Virus record (IMG/VR): IMGVR_UViG_3300008448_000510
Coordinates: 1 to 26,889 of that record
Length of the DNA: 26,889 nt
Source of the DNA: a virus
Direction: 5' to 3' (one strand)
Shown: positions 13,288 to 26,889 of the stretch, one piece after another
How the letters are laid out: each line of letters opens with the position of its first letter
Position numbering within the stretch: the stretch's first letter is position 1
The notes under the pieces: model-generated
Seen by the model: only the letters and a program-made list of their open reading frames with translations
Databases searched by the model: none
What the model was told of the DNA's origin: nothing
Position numbers and translations under genes: made by a program

Positions 13288-13711
13288 TGCTATCTCCTAG
13301 CGGTAACTCACAGGTTACCCATTGAACTTGGTTGCCATCATTGGCGAATAGTTTGATCCAACCTTTGCGCCCCGTAAATTCGATGGCGTTGCATTGCGTA
13401 TCCTTTGCCCAGCGGCGCAACAGCGCCAGCATGGGGGCTTTCCAGAGGTGGAGCTCGTCCCCACCACAGAAGTGCATCGTCAGCACCCGCTTGTTGGGAT
13501 AGTCTGTGAATCCGGTGACGACTGCCCCATAGTAGACCGGGCCTTCTTCAAAGGCAACCCAGAGGTTATAGTCCGGTCTCTGAGTCACCAAGTCATAAAT
13601 ATCGTCTTCGTGATACCGACCAAACGTATACTCCGCTGCCTTGTCCATAAACTCCTGCACATCCGGCCAACACTCATGGACATGCTCTTGGGGGATCAAA
13701 CTGACCATCAT
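13280..13711 (-). CDS. GNAT-like small phage protein
   Basis: A 143-aa protein whose ATG overlaps the stop of the 424-aa gene (ATGA). It begins with MMVSLIP and an acidic-aromatic helix (about 9-30), then a strand pattern (LWVAFEEG, YYGAVVTG), a strand RVLTMHFCGG near 75-84, a helix (about 89-106) and a final strand segment. This order of strands and helices, and the way such genes sit beside internal virion proteins, resembles GNAT-fold acyltransferase-like proteins, including T7 gp13, a GNAT-like internal virion protein. I do not see a clear acetyl-CoA P-loop signature (Q/RxxGxG/A), so catalysis may be absent. Possible roles are protein modification or a structural or ejection accessory. 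The coding call is firm, the fold moderate and the function weak. Confidence 0.75.
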   Translation of the reverse strand: MMVSLIPQEHVHECWPDVQEFMDKAAEYTFGRYHEDDIYDLVTQRPDYNLWVAFEEGPVYYGAVVTGFTDYPNKRVLTMHFCGGDELHLWKAPMLALLRRWAKDTQCNAIEFTGRKGWIKLFANDGNQVQWVTCELPLGDSNG

Positions 13712-18034: not shown

Positions 18035-18475
18035 TCACGCGTACGGGCGTGTGCCCTGCTTATCGATAATCAATCGGGAGTTACGAGGTTTAGCGTCCGG
18101 CGTATTCGGCACAGAGATATGCGTCCAAGAGTCAAACTCAAGAATGATCTGATCAAACGGCACCCCGGCAGTAATGCAGGCTTCCACTACCTCCCGAGGC
18201 TTCATACCCGGCACTCGAATGTCCGCAGCGCAGCCTAGCCGGTGCTGGCTGGTGTCTCTTGAGCCTACAGAGTCGTTGACCTTTTTAGACCGGAACCCGC
18301 TGTTAATCATGACCGGCTTACCGCCAACTGCCGTCTTGACCTGTTGAAGTAAACCCGCCAGCCGTTTTAGGTTCTCAACTTCCTGCTCGTTGGGCGTGTT
18401 ATCCCATCCGTTCCGGTCAGCAGCTTCGGAGCGGGTCAGCTCGGCGAGGGAGAAGTTAATGGTCAGTTGAGTCAT
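18035..18475 (-). CDS. Endolysin, peptidase M15 family (D-Ala-D-Ala carboxypeptidase-like)
   Basis: A 146-aa zinc peptidase expected to cut peptide cross-links in peptidoglycan and release progeny. The M15A pattern is clear: SGFRSKKVN at 59-67, the SxHxxGxAxD-type motif with His78 and Asp85 (QHRLGCAAD), and a C-terminal WTHIS with His119 as third zinc ligand; Glu113 is the likely catalytic acid/base. The length is normal for phage M15 endolysins. There is no signal peptide, so it should need the holin encoded just upstream in the transcript, whose stop overlaps this start (ATGA). Function is confident. Whether it acts as an L-alanyl-D-glutamate endopeptidase or a D-Ala-D-Ala cleaver cannot be decided here. 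Confidence 0.93.
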   Translation of the reverse strand: MTQLTINFSLAELTRSEAADRNGWDNTPNEQEVENLKRLAGLLQQVKTAVGGKPVMINSGFRSKKVNDSVGSRDTSQHRLGCAADIRVPGMKPREVVEACITAGVPFDQIILEFDSWTHISVPNTPDAKPRNSRLIIDKQGTRPYA

Positions 18476-18873
18476 TCCTTGGCCTTCTTCATGCCGATAA
18501 TTTTTTCAAGAGTCCTGCCTCCAAAATAGAAGGACATTATCAGCATACCCCACTGTCCAAGAAGTTCGACGTAGTTGTTGTTGACTTCAATATTCCATGC
18601 CGACATTAGACCAAATGCGGTGTAAGTAATCAGGATAAACACCAGCGTCATAGGCCGGATGTTCTTGGACAGCCAGCTATCGCTACTCATATCGGCTTGA
18701 AGGCGCTTCGTCAGTTCCTCCTGCTCGGATACATCGGCGTTCAGTTGAGCCAATTCACCATTCTGCTGCATTTCCAGCAGCTTCAGCTTGGCCTGTTCCG
18801 CAGCCTGTGCGTCAGGGAAGAACTTGTCGATCAGCTTGGCACCGACCGTCAACAGTGCGGGAATCGGAATCAT
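18472..18873 (-). CDS. Holin, 3-TM type (GTA holin-like)
   Basis: A 133-aa membrane protein expected to form lesions in the inner membrane and release the endolysin. The layout is an N-terminal hydrophobic patch (IPIPALLTVGAKLIDKFF), a charged helix (about 21-64) and two strong transmembrane segments at about 75-93 and 104-118, ending in a Lys-rich tail. This matches the family known as the 3-TM holin superfamily of phages and gene transfer agents. It overlaps the endolysin gene by four bases (ATGA) and is itself overlapped by the upstream TM-protein gene. The adjacency to a clear M15 endolysin supports the call. Confidence 0.85.
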   Translation of the reverse strand: MIPIPALLTVGAKLIDKFFPDAQAAEQAKLKLLEMQQNGELAQLNADVSEQEELTKRLQADMSSDSWLSKNIRPMTLVFILITYTAFGLMSAWNIEVNNNYVELLGQWGMLIMSFYFGGRTLEKIIGMKKAKE

Positions 18874-22128: not shown

Positions 22129-24258
22129 TTAGACAACTATGCCCTGCCAGTTTGGGGTTTGGGGCGTTGAGATTGGACTCCAGTTGCTGGCTTGGTCGTC
22201 ATCGATATCCACCCAGATTGTGACATATGAAGTTCCGCCCACAGCTTGCACTCCCGTCGGGACGACAATTGCTCCTTGTGTCGTCGTAACTGTTACATCA
22301 CCTATTGCGGCGCTGGCTGAGACTCCGGTTACTTGATATATGAATGCGATCGTTACATCGCCGACTGCACCGATCGTGGCTACGCCAGACAATTCTACAA
22401 CGGAAGTGCCTGTAACTGCTACAGAACCCGTTGATCCAGAGGCCGAAATCCCGGTAACCGGCACCGTCTGATTTACAGAAACTTGTACCGTCCCGATGTC
22501 TCCGGTGGCTTCCACCCCAGTAGTCGAAACCAGCCCGTTCCCAGCAACGGTAACCGACCCAACCTCACCGGTCGCTGAAACACCTTGCACCGCAACATTG
22601 ATATTCGCAACAACAGATACAGTTACGACACCCAAGGCCGACGTAGCGGCTACTCCAGACGGTGACACCACCGCCCCGGCCGCAATCTGAACTGTTCCGA
22701 CTTCCCCGGTAGCCTCTACGCCTGTAACGGCAACTGTCTCGTTTTGAACGATGACAACCGCAACATCCCCAATAAACCCACTGGCCTGCACTCCGGATGC
22801 CGTGACAACAGCAGTCCCCGTTAGAACGACGACACCAACCTCACCGGTCGCAAAAACCCCCGTGGTAGGCACGACAGCCGTGCCTGTAACCGTGGCATTC
22901 CCAACTTCCCCGGTGGCTTCTACGCCTGTAACGGGAACATAAATTGTCCCAAAAACCACTGTTACAGTGCCGATAGCACCGGTGGCCTCTACGCCTGTGA
23001 CGAGGGCTGCTGCCGAGGCTACAACCGTTACATCTCCAACCTCGCCGGTAGCAAAAACCCCCGTGGTGGGCACAACTGCAGCACCAGTAGCTGTGGCATC
23101 ACCTATCTGCCCAGTTGCCTCTACGCCTGTAACCGGAACTGCGGCATTGCCTATCTCAGTGGGGTCTCCGATTTGACCAGTGGCTTCTACTCCGGTAACG
23201 GGGACAACCGCAGAGGCTACAACCGTTACATTCCCAACCTCGCCGGTTGCCGAAACCCCAGTAACCGAAACAGTGACGTCTACGGTGGAGGACGTATAAG
23301 TGATGATGATCGCGCCTTGGGCACCATTACCGCCTGCACCGACGTTATCGTCACCCGCACCCGCACCACCACCGCCACCACCGTAGGAAGCACCCGCGCC
23401 GCCCGTACCACCACCAGTATTGGTTGTATTGCTGTTGCCACCACCGCCACCACCACCGCCGCCTGAACCCGCAGTTCCACCTGCTGTAATCGTATATTCC
23501 GTACCAGCACCGCCGGTGCCGCCGTTAAAGCCGTTCTGGTTATTAGCTGCCCGACCAGCACCGCCACCACCGCCCGCGCCATTGGAACCGTCGCCGCCAT
23601 TAGATGCGTTACCTGCTGTGCCACCAGCGCCGCCAGTGTATGAAAGACCGCCAACACCGCCCAATGCGCTTGTCGTGGTTCCACCATTACCGCCAGTGCC
23701 ACCACCACCGCCACCACCCCGGCCAGCTACAGTGCCGCCTGCACCACCAGTGCCGCCGTTGGCTGTATCGTCACCCGCAGAGCCACCACCGCCACCTGCG
23801 GTCTGGTCAGTCGCAGAACCAGCGCCACCAGTGCCGCCGTTAAACTTGGTGTCACCCACACCAGCAGATGCCAGACCGCCAACACCGCCCGCCGTAACAG
23901 TAGCATTGGCACTAGCACCCTTGGCTAAGGCACCGTCAGTCGTCGAAGTTGGTGCGGCATTTGTGGTCTTATTGAGCCAAGTATCACCACCGGCTGTAGG
24001 GCCAGCCGCAGCACCAGCCGCACGACCAGTGCCGCCAGCACCAATGCTGATGTTGACCGTCGCGTTGGGGGTAAGCGTAAAGTTGGTAAGGATTGAGAAC
24101 GCACCACCACCACCGGCACCTGCGCCATCTTCAGCAGTAGCGTCACTGGAACCACCACCACCGCCACCGGCAATAACCCTAATGGTGTTAGTGTTTGTCC
24201 AATCCGCAGGCACCGTAAATGTGGTGCCTGTGGTAATCAGTATGGTTTTATCAGCCAT
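22129..24258 (-). CDS. Adhesin: glycine-rich domain plus 22-residue beta repeats
   Basis: A 709-aa protein that starts inside the end of the previous 65-aa gene (8-base overlap). After an N-terminal strand region (TILITTGTTFTVPADWTN), residues about 30-325 are dominated by Gly runs (GGGGGG and GGTGGAG). This recalls the polyglycine-type helices of receptor-binding adhesins such as phage S16 gp38. From about 325 to 665 there are about sixteen repeats of 20-24 residues with the pattern VTGVEATGEVGxVTV. The C-terminus has a short Trp/Asp/Gln motif (DIDDDQASNWSPI, QTPNWQ) that is shared with the 224-aa protein. Both suggest a host-recognition protein with exposed, variable surfaces. The adhesin role is inferred from domain style and location among fibre genes. 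Confidence 0.8.
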   Translation of the reverse strand: MADKTILITTGTTFTVPADWTNTNTIRVIAGGGGGGSSDATAEDGAGAGGGGAFSILTNFTLTPNATVNISIGAGGTGRAAGAAAGPTAGGDTWLNKTTNAAPTSTTDGALAKGASANATVTAGGVGGLASAGVGDTKFNGGTGGAGSATDQTAGGGGGSAGDDTANGGTGGAGGTVAGRGGGGGGGTGGNGGTTTSALGGVGGLSYTGGAGGTAGNASNGGDGSNGAGGGGGAGRAANNQNGFNGGTGGAGTEYTITAGGTAGSGGGGGGGGGNSNTTNTGGGTGGAGASYGGGGGGAGAGDDNVGAGGNGAQGAIIITYTSSTVDVTVSVTGVSATGEVGNVTVVASAVVPVTGVEATGQIGDPTEIGNAAVPVTGVEATGQIGDATATGAAVVPTTGVFATGEVGDVTVVASAAALVTGVEATGAIGTVTVVFGTIYVPVTGVEATGEVGNATVTGTAVVPTTGVFATGEVGVVVLTGTAVVTASGVQASGFIGDVAVVIVQNETVAVTGVEATGEVGTVQIAAGAVVSPSGVAATSALGVVTVSVVANINVAVQGVSATGEVGSVTVAGNGLVSTTGVEATGDIGTVQVSVNQTVPVTGISASGSTGSVAVTGTSVVELSGVATIGAVGDVTIAFIYQVTGVSASAAIGDVTVTTTQGAIVVPTGVQAVGGTSYVTIWVDIDDDQASNWSPISTPQTPNWQGIVV
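22216..23285 (-). repeat. Array of about sixteen 60-72-base coding repeats (709-aa gene)
   Basis: Degenerate direct repeats encode variants of VTGVEATGEVGTVTV with a roughly 22-codon period. They are coding repeats that keep frame, with no spacer structure, so this is not a CRISPR array. Identity between units is high enough to allow recombination. Confidence 0.8.
23290..24189 (-). repeat. Glycine-rich low-complexity coding tract
   Basis: A tract of GGN codons encodes dense Gly runs in the first half of the 709-aa adhesin. On the opposite strand it reads as a Pro-rich open frame, which is a shadow of this composition and not a gene. Confidence 0.8.
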
Positions 24259-24448
24259 CTGGAGTTTCTGGCTGAATGACTGGGGGGTTAGGGTTTATAA
24301 AAGATGACCCGTCCCAAGACCAAGCAATATCGCAGAATACGGCGTCCTCGATACCCACAAGAGAACACCCTGCAGGAGCCAGATCGGTAGGCTCTGCCAT
24401 GATGATATTCACCACAAGGCCGTCGGTATCAATAACTGCGCATCTCAT
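24251..24448 (-). CDS. Small protein between two adhesin genes
   Basis: A 65-aa protein beginning MRCAVIDTDGLVVNII, a start typical of small phage proteins encoded next to tail fibres; it contains VFCDIAWSWDGSSF and a Pro-rich tail. It follows the 224-aa adhesin by one base and overlaps the 709-aa gene, so it belongs to the adhesin pair. Fibre assembly or tip-attachment is plausible but not shown. It has the same aromatic-Asp plus Pro-tail style as the 78-aa protein after the 687-aa fibre. Confidence 0.65.
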   Translation of the reverse strand: MRCAVIDTDGLVVNIIMAEPTDLAPAGCSLVGIEDAVFCDIAWSWDGSSFINPNPPVIQPETPDG

Positions 24449-24449
24449 A

Positions 24450-25124
24450 TCAAGCCGCCAATGTCGCTACAGGAGACCAAGTGCCCGTTTGACTGTCGTT
24501 TACAGGCACCCAGTTAGGGGTTTGATTATCGTCGATTACTGACCAGATCAGTACATTCCCCACAAATCCTGTGGCCTGAACACCCACAGGGAAAACAAAG
24601 GCCGTGCCGGTTACAGTTACGGTGCCAGTCTGACCTGTGGCTTGAACCCCGGTAACGGAAACAACTATGCTTAGAGATACAGATACGGTGCCAAGTTGGG
24701 TATCGCATTGAACGCCTGTAACCGGAACATCTGCATCTGCTGCGACAACAACGTCCCCAACGAACCCATTAGCCTGAACACCTGTGACTGAGAATAGAGC
24801 GTTGCCGGTTACGGTTACAGTTCCGGTCTGCCCTGCAGCTTCTACGCCGGTGACAGGAACAACAGCAGTACCCGAAACTGCAACCGAACCAACCTGCCCC
24901 GTAGCTTCTACCCCGGTGACAGGAACATCTGCATCTGCGGCGACAACGACGGTGCCAAGCTGAGTATCGCCTTGAACGCCCGTAACAAAAATAATAGCCG
25001 AGGCAGCGACAACAACGGTGCCAAGCTGGGTGCCGCCTTGAACGCCAACAACAGAAACAACGACATCAGGAGAAAGCCCTATGCCGGAAAAAGGAGCAGC
25101 CGAGAATGGGAAATCGCTAAACAA
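24450..25124 (-). CDS. Repeat-only adhesin or fibre protein
   Basis: A 224-aa protein that begins with TTG, supported by AGGAG (complement of 25133-25137) eight bases upstream. After FSDFPFSAAPFSG (residues 2-14), it is almost entirely eight repeats of about 22 residues (VTGVQATGQTGTVTV and relatives). It ends with SVIDDNQTPNWVPV and QTGTWSPV, which match the C-terminal motif of the 709-aa adhesin. It lacks a glycine-rich domain. It is probably a paralogue or a repeat-only version of the 709-aa adhesin, acting on the virion surface or in receptor contact. The repeat similarity is direct; the role is inferred. Confidence 0.75.
   Translation of the reverse strand: MFSDFPFSAAPFSGIGLSPDVVVSVVGVQGGTQLGTVVVAASAIIFVTGVQGDTQLGTVVVAADADVPVTGVEATGQVGSVAVSGTAVVPVTGVEAAGQTGTVTVTGNALFSVTGVQANGFVGDVVVAADADVPVTGVQCDTQLGTVSVSLSIVVSVTGVQATGQTGTVTVTGTAFVFPVGVQATGFVGNVLIWSVIDDNQTPNWVPVNDSQTGTWSPVATLAA
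24555..25073 (-). repeat. Array of eight 22-codon repeats (224-aa gene)
   Basis: In-frame degenerate repeats of 66 bases or so encode the same family as the 709-aa gene (VTGVEATGQVGSVAV and similar). Some units are near-copies of each other, such as the pair with VVVAADADVPVTGV. Confidence 0.8.
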
Positions 25125-25132
25125 CCAGACTG

Positions 25133-25137
25133 CTCCT
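25133..25137 (-). promoter_or_regulatory. Shine-Dalgarno deciding a TTG start
   Basis: CTCCT on the plus strand reads AGGAG on the minus strand, eight bases before the TTG at 25124-25122. It supports TTG as the start of the 224-aa adhesin; no in-frame ATG exists near it. Confidence 0.65.
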
Positions 25138-25154
25138 AATTAGTTTAACTACTG

Positions 25155-25400
25155 TTACTTGTTTGCGGCGATAGCGGCCTGCAGCGGGGTGAGGTCTTGA
25201 TCTTGCATAAAGGATTTTGCAACCATGATCTCAAGGTGCTCTACATTACGCCTCTTGGTGTCAACCCATTCTGCATCCGACATGCGCTCGGGCTTGCCAG
25301 CATTGAGCAGGTTCACAGAGGCCATCGCTGCGCTGTAGTGACGGGCGACTTCTTCAGGGGTTTGGTTTTCAAAACGAGACCTAACGGATTCCATATTCAT
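25155..25400 (-). CDS. Small helical phage protein, function unknown
   Basis: An 81-aa protein starting in an ATGA overlap with the upstream 56-aa gene. It is mostly helical and charged, with TPEEVARHYSAAM near the start, RNVEHLEIMVAKSF around 51-64 and DLTPLQAAIAANK at the end. I know similar short proteins from phage tail-fibre regions, but none with a proven role. There is no membrane segment or enzyme motif. The strong overlaps on both sides argue that it is really expressed. Confidence 0.7.
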   Translation of the reverse strand: MNMESVRSRFENQTPEEVARHYSAAMASVNLLNAGKPERMSDAEWVDTKRRNVEHLEIMVAKSFMQDQDLTPLQAAIAANK

Positions 25401-25567
25401 GATCCCTCTGTTTTCGGCTCTTCTGGCGACCCGACTTGCGGCTGCGCTTGTTGTTGGATTTTTAGCACCAAAGCCACCACCTGCGAGTACGGCATCTGAC
25501 CCAGAGATTGAAGAATACCATTCACTTCTGCAACGGTCAGTTTCAGTTCGATTTCTTTGGTTTCCAT
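25397..25567 (-). CDS. Small acidic helical protein, function unknown
   Basis: A 56-aa protein too short for most scans: it runs METKEIELKLTVAEVNGIL and then a helix with GQMPYSQVVALVLKIQQQ, and ends PKTEGS. AAGGA lies six bases before this ATG; a second ATG directly upstream (25570) would add one Met but has poorer spacing. The stop overlaps the next start (ATGA). A very similar helix pattern, with NGIL, LG and PY, is familiar to me from small proteins in many phages. Function is unknown. Confidence 0.65.
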   Translation of the reverse strand: METKEIELKLTVAEVNGILQSLGQMPYSQVVALVLKIQQQAQPQVGSPEEPKTEGS

Positions 25568-25587
25568 CATGCGTCCTTATTTGACGT

Positions 25588-25776
25588 TTACTTTTGGTTG
25601 ATAGGCTGCGTAGTGATAATCCGCAGTACTGCTACTCCGACAGAAATGACCAGCATCACCAAGCCCGTATTAGCGGGGCCGACTAGCTGAGACACGACTG
25701 ACTGAGACTGTTCCAGAATCCCACCCACAGCAATCAGGACGGAAAACCAGATAGTTTTGGATTTAAGGTAGTTCAT
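25588..25776 (-). CDS. Small two-TM holin-like protein
   Basis: A 62-aa membrane protein with hydrophobic segments at about 9-21 (IWFSVLIAVGGIL) and 37-54 (TGLVMLVISVGVAVLRII), a short loop between and a charged tail. Small two-TM phage proteins starting MNYLKSKT and ending with a VLR-rich helix are often annotated as holins. Its ATG overlaps the TGA of the 27-aa stub. The endolysin is over 7 kb away, beside a second holin candidate, so this one could be an antiholin, a regulator or a redundant holin. Confidence 0.65.
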   Translation of the reverse strand: MNYLKSKTIWFSVLIAVGGILEQSQSVVSQLVGPANTGLVMLVISVGVAVLRIITTQPINQK

Positions 25777-25856
25777 GCGGCTGCGGTGATAACAACGTCC
25801 GCTTCACCGTCCTGCTGAACGGCGCAATCCATCTGTTCGATTAGCCAAGTAGTCAT
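25773..25856 (-). pseudogene. 27-aa stub of a longer phage protein family
   Basis: This short frame starts at an ATG at 25856 and encodes MTTWLIEQMDCAVQQDGEAD followed by VVITAAA before a TGA that overlaps the next ATG. The residues look like the start of a phage family I recall as roughly 100 aa or more, in which the D-V-V-(I/V)-T/V run is followed by a Trp-rich sequence. Here it stops just after that point, consistent with a deletion or premature end. It may still be translated as a small leader. The upstream signal GGAT is weak. I mark it as a probable remnant, not a proven pseudogene. Confidence 0.45.
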
Positions 25857-25907
25857 TTTTTATCCAGTTTATTTATTCGTGCCAGACCGTCTTGAATTTA
25901 TGAAGCG

Positions 25908-26447
25908 TCAGTCAATTCTTAGTGCTTTAAGTTCATCAAGAGAAACCAGCAAGTCCACCTGTTTCGTTATGTCGCGCAGTCTTTGCTTTTCTTTCACAAT
26001 TTCCGAGGTGTCTGCGCCAGTCTCAAGTGCGCGTTGAAAGGCTACATCTTGCGCTTCAAGCAGCGGCTTGCGTTCAACACGAAGTCTGTCTTTAGTTAGG
26101 TCTTTTGCTTTGCCCATATCAACCTTAATTCCGTTATCGTCTTTCCATGCGTTGCGGAAGGTGCGGTCTGAGGGAATTTCAGACCCATCTACTACATGCA
26201 CGTTGGTTGCGTCTTTTTGAACGTCTTTGGCAATAATGCGAGCGATAAATTCAGCCTCGGTTTCTGCCCATTCCGCAACTGCACCATTGACAGGCCAGCG
26301 CCGCAAGAAAGTATCCACTGGTCGCGCATCTTCACTACGAATAACCGAGCCATCAGAGAACGTCACACCATAAGCCAACCGCGCACCCTCGCATGGCCCC
26401 ATTACAGAAACACCGCCATCAGCGCAAGTAAAAACGATTTTTATCAT
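25908..26447 (-). CDS. Phage protein of a fibre-adjacent conserved type, function unknown
   Basis: A 179-aa protein. I chose ATG 26447 because it shares a base with the stop of the upstream fibre gene (TAATG), making a coupled start; the longer frame from 26468 begins inside that gene. Residues 1-85 are mixed alpha/beta with several acidic strands, and residues about 90-145 hold a motif typical of many phage proteins: SEIPSDRTFRNAW, then VDMGKAKDLTKDRLR and PLLEAQDVAFQRALE. The end is a charged helix. No active-site pattern is seen. It probably takes part in tail-fibre assembly or is a virion accessory, by location only. The bases from 25857 to 25907 are AT-rich and hold no gene that I can see. 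Confidence 0.75.
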   Translation of the reverse strand: MIKIVFTCADGGVSVMGPCEGARLAYGVTFSDGSVIRSEDARPVDTFLRRWPVNGAVAEWAETEAEFIARIIAKDVQKDATNVHVVDGSEIPSDRTFRNAWKDDNGIKVDMGKAKDLTKDRLRVERKPLLEAQDVAFQRALETGADTSEIVKEKQRLRDITKQVDLLVSLDELKALRID

Positions 26448-26889
26448 TACTGATCTCCAAAGGCACAAAACAGAAAACGATCTGGATCTGTTGGTGTTCC
26501 AGTCGCACTTGATGCGGTTATTGAAAAAGAACCAATCGCAGGAGTTGCGTTAAGTTTTGAAAATACTGTACCAAGCGCACTTACAACGTCAGAAATTGGG
26601 ACGTTATCAGTTGAAAAGTCTGTCCCCACCACGACTGTTGCAATCCCAGTGCCTACATCCGTGATGCTTGTCACGTTGTAACCGACAATTAAGTTTCCGG
26701 TAACACCAGCCTGCCCCCACACTTTTGCCGCACTTGGGTGAAATTGCTGCCGACCGGGAGTGACTATTGTTGTGGTGCTGGTCGCGGTTTCTTGGTCTGC
26801 TTGGGTTGCAACGGCAGTTCCAGAAACACTTGCCGCACTAATATCCCCCGTCGCACTTAGCGCCCCGGTGACTGCTAGGCCGGTCGAAA
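26447..26889 (-). CDS. Tail fibre, C-terminal part (5' end beyond the window)
   Basis: The frame is open from the right edge to a TAA at 26447, so this is a 3'-end fragment of a larger gene; a GTG at 26722 is merely internal. Near the edge it carries a shaft-like segment with LAVTGALSATGDISAASVSG, then STTTIVTPGRQQFHPSAAKVW, a common phage fibre motif in which the fibre domain starts around FHPSAAK. After it comes a beta-rich domain with IVGYNVTSITDVGTGIATV and ends in RFLFCAFGDQ. It is the first gene of the late operon in this window. The domain style strongly suggests host-recognition or virion fibre function. Confidence 0.75.
   Translation of the reverse strand, partial: STGLAVTGALSATGDISAASVSGTAVATQADQETATSTTTIVTPGRQQFHPSAAKVWGQAGVTGNLIVGYNVTSITDVGTGIATVVVGTDFSTDNVPISDVVSALGTVFSKLNATPAIGSFSITASSATGTPTDPDRFLFCAFGDQ

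Follow-up and report, generated by a model that had tools for sequence, protein, structure and literature searches.

A 27-codon open reading frame (ORF) overlapping the start of a 62-codon gene in a phage genome is best read, with a probability that we put at roughly 60%, as a translational leader born by deletion: a stub of a formerly longer gene that would now supply ribosomes to its downstream neighbor. Sequence comparisons make it almost certain that this stub is the remnant of a gene of the phage family DUF7936 (Pfam PF25590), counting as one outcome a deletion within a single gene and a join between two phages. The sequence analyzed, referred to here as the window, comprises the 26,889 bases of IMG/VR virus record IMGVR_UViG_3300008448_000510, possibly a fragment. 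The features around the stub are as follows.

25155-25400, minus strand: 81-codon ORF
25397-25570, minus strand: 57-aa gene
25588-25776, minus strand: gene for a small hydrophobic protein of 62 aa, the presumed coupled downstream gene, with no Shine-Dalgarno match
25588-25868, minus strand: 281-bp block of a 12-bp ribosome-site region, the stub and the 62-aa gene, 95% identical to contig L001
25773-25776, minus strand: stop/start overlap ATGA, 4 nt common to the stub and the 62-aa gene
25773-25856, minus strand: stub, the 27-codon remnant of a DUF7936 gene, encoding MTTWLIEQMDCAVQQDGEADVVITAAA
25780-25781, minus strand: deletion junction, GC, ORF bases 76-77, from comparison of carrier L001 with L111 and L005
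25857-25868, minus strand: ACTGGATAAAAA, the stub's ribosome-site region, at which the block common with L001 has its upstream limit
25908-26447, minus strand: upstream neighbor, a tail-fibre-assembly-like protein (phrog_20196, 3.6e-16; phrog_4912, 1.3e-4; the PHROG query, 25908-26450, was one residue longer than the gene)

Identity of the stub

In the ORF reading of the window, the stub runs from an ATG at 25856 to a TGA at 25775-25773. Its 3' end reads GCC GCA TGA, and the ATG of the 62-codon ORF (25776) sits inside GCATGA, so that the letters confirm both the position of the stub and the ATGA overlap reported from an initial inspection of the sequence (hereafter the sequence-only reading). 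That inspection had also taken the stub, truncated after VVITA, for the first part of a longer phage protein family, and here too it proved correct: residues 1-26 are identical to the start of the full-length, 107-aa DUF7936 protein of L111, the ORF of which reads MTTWLIEQMDCAVQQDGEADVVITAA and continues as WRCNG..., while the middle of the gene has been lost from the stub. The stub is therefore not just an ORF that arose by chance. Common descent of the two is evident at the DNA level, where carrier L001 and L111 are identical over 93 bp that begin 16 bp upstream of the ATG and end at ORF base 77.

Scanning IMG/VR with the N-terminal motif W-x-I-E-Q-M-x-C identified 80 stretches, comprising 70 full-length ORFs (106-140 aa, 52 distinct proteins), five mini-ORFs, three that run off the stretch end and two without an ATG. 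Longer homologs sharing the N-terminus are thus present, and the 27-residue form of the stub occurs in just two of the 80, so that neither outcome named beforehand as refuting the sequence-only reading was observed. Against the Pfam DUF7936 profile the stub scores 13.9 bits (E 0.094, profile positions 4-25 of 103) relative to a curated cut-off of 27 bits; intact genes score 81.5 (L005), 84.9 (L111), 88.3 (L004) and 74.6 bits (MW202825.1, Manatee Spring phage). Because its score falls below the cut-off, we treat the stub as a remnant and not as a DUF7936 member protein. It had no match in the PHROGs, where DUF7936 also constitutes phrog_7802, nor did the 27-aa peptide match named phages by tblastn.

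Two further IMG/VR contigs carry the stub. One, L013, derives from the same phage as the window (99.98% identical over 6,299 bp, with identical stub DNA). The other, L001, represents a different, partly related phage that encodes the same peptide and is 82.5% identical to the window over 836 bp at the lysis genes. A second DUF7936 copy was found in none of the records of these carriers (G000, L001 and L013; 17.9-26.9 kb, possibly fragments). The N-terminal pattern was also matched 19 times in genome contigs; with translations judged by eye, none of the 19 was a DUF7936 gene, and the matches therefore give no hint of a host.

A structural model of the full-length protein (L111:5010-5330; mean pLDDT 95.8) comprises three long strands and two helices. 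A structure search with this model returned no PDB match at E <= 0.001 (best E 0.35), and 20 matches in BFVD at the same threshold, consisting of DUF7936-named proteins and unnamed entries. On the basis of the model, this widespread phage family possibly has an undescribed fold; no mention of DUF7936 by name was found in the literature searched.

Loss of the gene middle

Carrier L001 consists of L111-like DNA up to ORF base 77 and of L005-like DNA from base 76. Its last 9 coding nucleotides are those with which the intact DUF7936 gene in L005 ends, and that gene, too, precedes a 62-aa gene. In the stub, bases 1-77 thereby represent the old 5' end, and the last 9 nt (GCCGCATGA) represent the old 3' end as in L005. 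As 77 and 9 sum to 86 for an ORF of 84 nt, the two ends share a 2-bp microhomology, GC. These alignments make it near certain that an in-frame segment of about 80 codons disappeared across the 2-bp match, either deleted or bypassed when related phages were joined. Such an in-frame internal loss, or an equivalent illegitimate join, would have reduced a DUF7936 gene of about 107 codons to 27, with the ribosome site, the start codon and the stop overlapping the next ATG all kept.

The alternative route, illegitimate recombination between two phages contributing an L111-like 5' end and an L005-like 3' end in place of a deletion within one gene, is plausible, if somewhat doubtful. It concerns the origin of the stub and not its function, and its odds are not exclusive of the other readings considered here. 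Among the loci fetched, no intact gene with both L111-like and L005-like ends was found and no intact gene with an L111-like start precedes a 62-aa gene, L111-type genes preceding the 57-aa gene or others, as a two-phage join would predict. However, such a join would leave the same product as a deletion in a parent missing from the sample, the two are indistinguishable, and an in-frame internal loss within the DUF7936 family is seen in L124.

Age of the stop/start overlap

The sequence-only reading had proposed that a deletion joined the stub to the downstream gene. Relatives of the 62-aa gene contradict this part of the proposal. Scanning IMG/VR with the 62-aa protein identified 26 loci, ten of which have an intact gene of 104-109 codons directly upstream. 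Including L190 (MW202825.1), in which the downstream gene is a 61-aa relative of the 62-aa protein, an intact DUF7936 gene lies directly before the 62-aa gene in 11 loci (L002-L008, L012, L014, L015 and L190), some of them near-duplicates, e.g. L005/L006 and L004/L008. Membership in DUF7936 was assigned by Pfam for L004, L005, L012, L014 and L190, and by family alignment for L002, L003, L007 and L015; L006 is identical to L005, and L008 is nearly identical to L004. The two genes overlap by 1 nt in six of these loci and by 4 nt in four, and are separated by a 2-nt gap in L014. Since 10 of the 11 intact genes already overlap the 62-aa gene, the overlap is ancestral and older than the loss, and its creation by the deletion is ruled out. 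More widely, overlap letters are found at the stop of 40 of the 75 complete ORFs from the motif scan, as a raw count that includes the mini-ORFs (8 ATGA; 32 TAATG, TGATG or TAGTG).

Initiation signals

Start sites were compared by the energy of the anti-Shine-Dalgarno duplex in the 17 nt upstream, for which the background median is -2.8 kcal/mol. In line with an earlier claim that the downstream gene lacks its own ribosome site, its start has no Shine-Dalgarno match: after the stub, the 62-aa start scores +1.1 kcal/mol in the window and +0.9 in L001. The 62-aa starts that follow the 11 intact DUF7936 genes range from -2.6 to -3.3 kcal/mol, with -4.3 in L190, and five of the six that follow another gene score -4.0 or stronger (L009, L010 and L026, -4.0; L023, -5.9; L022, -9.3), the exception being L019 (-0.9). 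The start of the stub itself is weak in the window (-3.1 kcal/mol, GGAT, near the background median) and scores -6.4 in L001 (GGAG), compared with -3.1 to -9.3 for 17 intact DUF7936 starts. Weaker-than-background values also occur at 3 of 15 other gene starts in the window (24258, +0.2; 19814, -2.5; 13711, -2.7), all 15 being scored at ORF-list coordinates with the start of the upstream neighbor left out.

A search of Rfam returned nothing for window positions 25000-26600. A simple consensus scan found no promoter-like site in 24300-26889, and mRNA folding around the overlap was ordinary (z -0.03, -0.90 and -0.68). With no Shine-Dalgarno match, no promoter-like site and ordinary folding, the second start would therefore rely on something else.

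A block common to two phages

When the 10.2 kb of L013 surrounding the stub are compared with the 6.4 kb of L001, nothing but the 281-bp block matches; it ends at the stop of the 62-aa gene, and the neighboring DNA is without a match. All coding differences within the block are synonymous, four of four in the stub and nine of nine in the 62-aa gene, and the chance of four out of four in a neutral stub is 0.003-0.006. Such a pattern would be expected if selection maintained the reading frame of the stub, but does not prove it. The silent differences could also be imports by recombination with genes that are themselves under selection, because bases 1-77 of L001 equal those of the intact L111 gene while the stub of the window is nearer to intact L161 (2 differences over codons 1-22) than to the stub of L001 (3 differences). 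The two stubs could also represent separate, independent losses at the same place.

Other DUF7936 mini-genes

Mini-genes account for 5 of the 75 complete ORFs of the motif scan and are of three kinds, the overlap being kept only in the kind found in the window. Loci L124 and L139, which represent one phage (99.97% identical over 2,854 bp), carry a mini-gene of 29 codons, MFTWLIEQMDCAVQQDGKADVVLPLPWSN, corresponding to an in-frame join of VV to an LPLPW end; the longer of the two next ORFs starts 15 nt past its stop. The mini-gene of L125 is frame-shifted and has 27 codons, with AGGAG before the next gene; its 3' part, set beside gene ends like the one in L184, resembles an out-of-frame reading of an LPWVS end. 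Searching ATG-initiated ORFs of at least 20 codons from 551 sequences (550 loci and the window) with an N-terminus profile recovered the three mini-gene kinds, all at E < 1e-5, with the next short ORF at E 1.1. Patterns placing the N-terminus near PLPW matched at least 120 stretches each; among the loci listed, L124 is the one mini-gene.

Collapse of DUF7936 genes thus recurs, which supports the dispensability of DUF7936 more than a leader role. A broader proposal, which we advance only tentatively, is that DUF7936 genes repeatedly collapse to starter ORFs of 27-29 codons and that at least one now forms a compact expression unit passed horizontally between phages, comprising a ribosome site, a starter ORF and an overlapping cargo gene. 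If true, deletion would turn ordinary phage genes into new translational leaders where the overlap with the next gene is kept.

Other rearrangements were observed among these loci. In L025 (954-1327) a mirror-image loss has left an intact DUF7936 gene followed by the last 21 residues (42-62) of the 62-aa gene, in another frame and with the first 41 codons gone. Two different DUF7936-type genes lie in tandem in L051 (2477-2794 and 2794-3138), sharing the last base position, and a similar pair meets at 7737 in L133.

Leader, remnant or peptide

Under the leader reading, ribosomes would load at the stub, translate its 27 codons and terminate at the TGA, and those ending at this overlapping stop would restart on the ATG of the 62-aa gene, which would be the simplest source of its initiation; the stub peptide itself is probably without function. 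This reading builds on the observed homology, junction, overlap, second start lacking a Shine-Dalgarno match, and block common with L001, and supposes in addition that the stub would be translated, that reinitiation would follow, and that selection would act to keep the leader. Restart at ATGA and TGATG overlaps has been demonstrated by experiment, and according to the available extracts of the same study removal of the intragenic Shine-Dalgarno sequence lowered or abolished reinitiation in four of five Escherichia coli gene pairs (PMC6728339). Given these four pairs, restart without an intragenic Shine-Dalgarno sequence may be inefficient here. Also counted against the leader reading are the weak start of the stub in the window, the fact that absence of a Shine-Dalgarno match is not unique in the window, the ordinary folding, and the lack of an overlap with the next gene in the mini-genes of L124/L139 and L125.

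Several of these observations are shared by a second reading, in which the stub is inert debris of a dispensable gene and the 62-aa gene either starts alone, weakly, or is itself dispensable. We consider this unlikely but deserving of weight. Another gene precedes the 62-aa gene in L009/L010 and L022, so DUF7936 is not needed there; the L124/L139 and L125 mini-genes exist without an overlap; and several other starts in the window have no Shine-Dalgarno match. Against inert debris stand the retention of frame, start and overlap in two phages whose neighboring DNA differs, the synonymous nature of 13 of 13 coding differences in the block common with L001, and the absence of a Shine-Dalgarno match for independent initiation.

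It is very improbable that the 27 residues act as a protein, for instance as the N-terminal strand of DUF7936. The peptide is identical in both carriers despite four DNA differences, as a functional micropeptide would be; yet according to the model, in which the fold has three strands and two helices, it retains only the first strand and roughly half of the second, it scores about half of the Pfam cut-off (13.9 versus 27 bits), and only two of the 11 positions that never vary among 48 family members, W4 and V22, are preserved in it. An assembly artefact is hardly credible: the window and L013 are the same phage and hence not clearly independent, but the junction recurs, with four silent differences, in L001, which comes from another dataset and has other neighboring DNA; this refutes an artefact unless both assemblies made the same error.

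The 62-aa protein and the lysis genes

The 62-aa protein is modeled with moderate confidence (mean pLDDT 73.8) as three helices (2-23, 25-32 and 34-56). Its family of 16 members has 10 invariant positions, including L4, K5, S6, T8 and F11, and L51, R52, T55, P58 and K62. The sequence-only reading had called the gene holin-like and regarded its product as a lysis protein. The first description finds weak support among relatives, in that the PHROG holin family phrog_297 matches 8 of the 16 members, weakly (best E 0.037), and the 61-aa relative in MW202825.1 was annotated 'holin' by its depositors; it does not extend to the protein of the window, which matches no holin family in PHROGs or Pfam and has no phrog_297 match at E <= 1. 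A role as lysis protein is putative at most; a recognizable holin and endolysin are present at a separate site of the window:

18035-18475: endolysin, Peptidase M15 (above the curated Pfam cut-off; PHROG endolysin)
18472-18873: holin, GTA_holin_3TM (above the curated Pfam cut-off; PHROG holin)

These findings caution against naming the 62-aa gene as the lysis gene of this phage. Elsewhere in the family, the gene before the 62-aa relative in L020 and L021 (1183-1545 in each) seems frame-shifted relative to L019, after NKENHTP. In L001, a 242-aa ORF (1423-2151) follows shortly after the 62-aa gene and presumably resembles a homing endonuclease of the GIY-YIG type.

Relation to known systems

Within DUF7936 (PF25590; phrog_7802), the stub corresponds to the N-terminal 26 residues, and it lacks roughly three quarters of the domain and, with them, 9 of the 11 invariant positions. 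From sequence alone, the stub and the 62-aa gene were likened to gene pairs coupled by termination-reinitiation at ATGA or TGATG. As far as the available extracts describe these pairs (PMC6728339, PMC10666635), they resemble ours in their 4-nt overlap on the same strand and in a second start without its own upstream region; unlike them, the first partner here is a 27-codon remnant and not a full gene, and there is no intragenic Shine-Dalgarno match. Short ORFs also exist whose sole role may be ribosome delivery, including mycobacterial MIRU elements with a spacing of -4 nt (PMC12548453, in the text available). The stub shares with these the 4-nt overlap, a start of its own and apparently no role for the peptide, but differs in that it descends from a member of a known phage gene family that lost its middle, and in that it sits, together with its downstream gene, in a block common to two phages.

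If the leader reading is right, a further parallel is provided by the coat-lysis arrangements of MS2 and fr, in which a small membrane protein is read after upstream termination. MS2 and fr are RNA phages with overlaps of 50 and 38 nt, and gating by RNA structure has been proposed for MS2 (PMC12548453, same extracts); the stub pair, by contrast, has a 4-nt overlap and no unusual structure. On the evidence of that text, short ORFs that deliver ribosomes are a kind already known (PMC12548453), and less usual is the way in which this one would have arisen, from a phage gene that lost its middle and kept its overlap. No description of such a case was found in the available portions of literature on deletion, lysis-gene coupling and gene remnants. 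The window provides a concrete sequence case of how a short translational leader can arise, in which near relatives are available for either end and the junction itself is located. Should the leader role hold, it would help explain why tiny, meaningless-looking ORFs are kept in phage genomes, and why neighbors are silenced when an accessory phage gene is deleted outright.

Neighboring genes

Among named phages, megablast found no match to the 6.9-kb end of the window, and the best match to its 970-aa ORF is 28% identical, indicating no close relative. Gene-pair overlaps are common elsewhere in the window, e.g. at 13708-13711, 18472-18475 and 18870-18873. The 57-aa gene (25397-25570), which starts KEIELKLTVAEVNG, has no family match in Pfam or PHROG, and a relative of it lies directly after an intact DUF7936 gene, with overlapping stop and start, in L111, L131, L150 and L035. 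Between the stub region and the lysis genes, a TGVxATGxxGxVxV-like repeat occurs in many copies in two minus-strand ORFs (22129-25124), one of which, scanned over 212 residues, has no PHROG match. In contrast to the window, where these repeat ORFs intervene, the endolysin relative of L111 begins about 1 kb past its DUF7936 gene.
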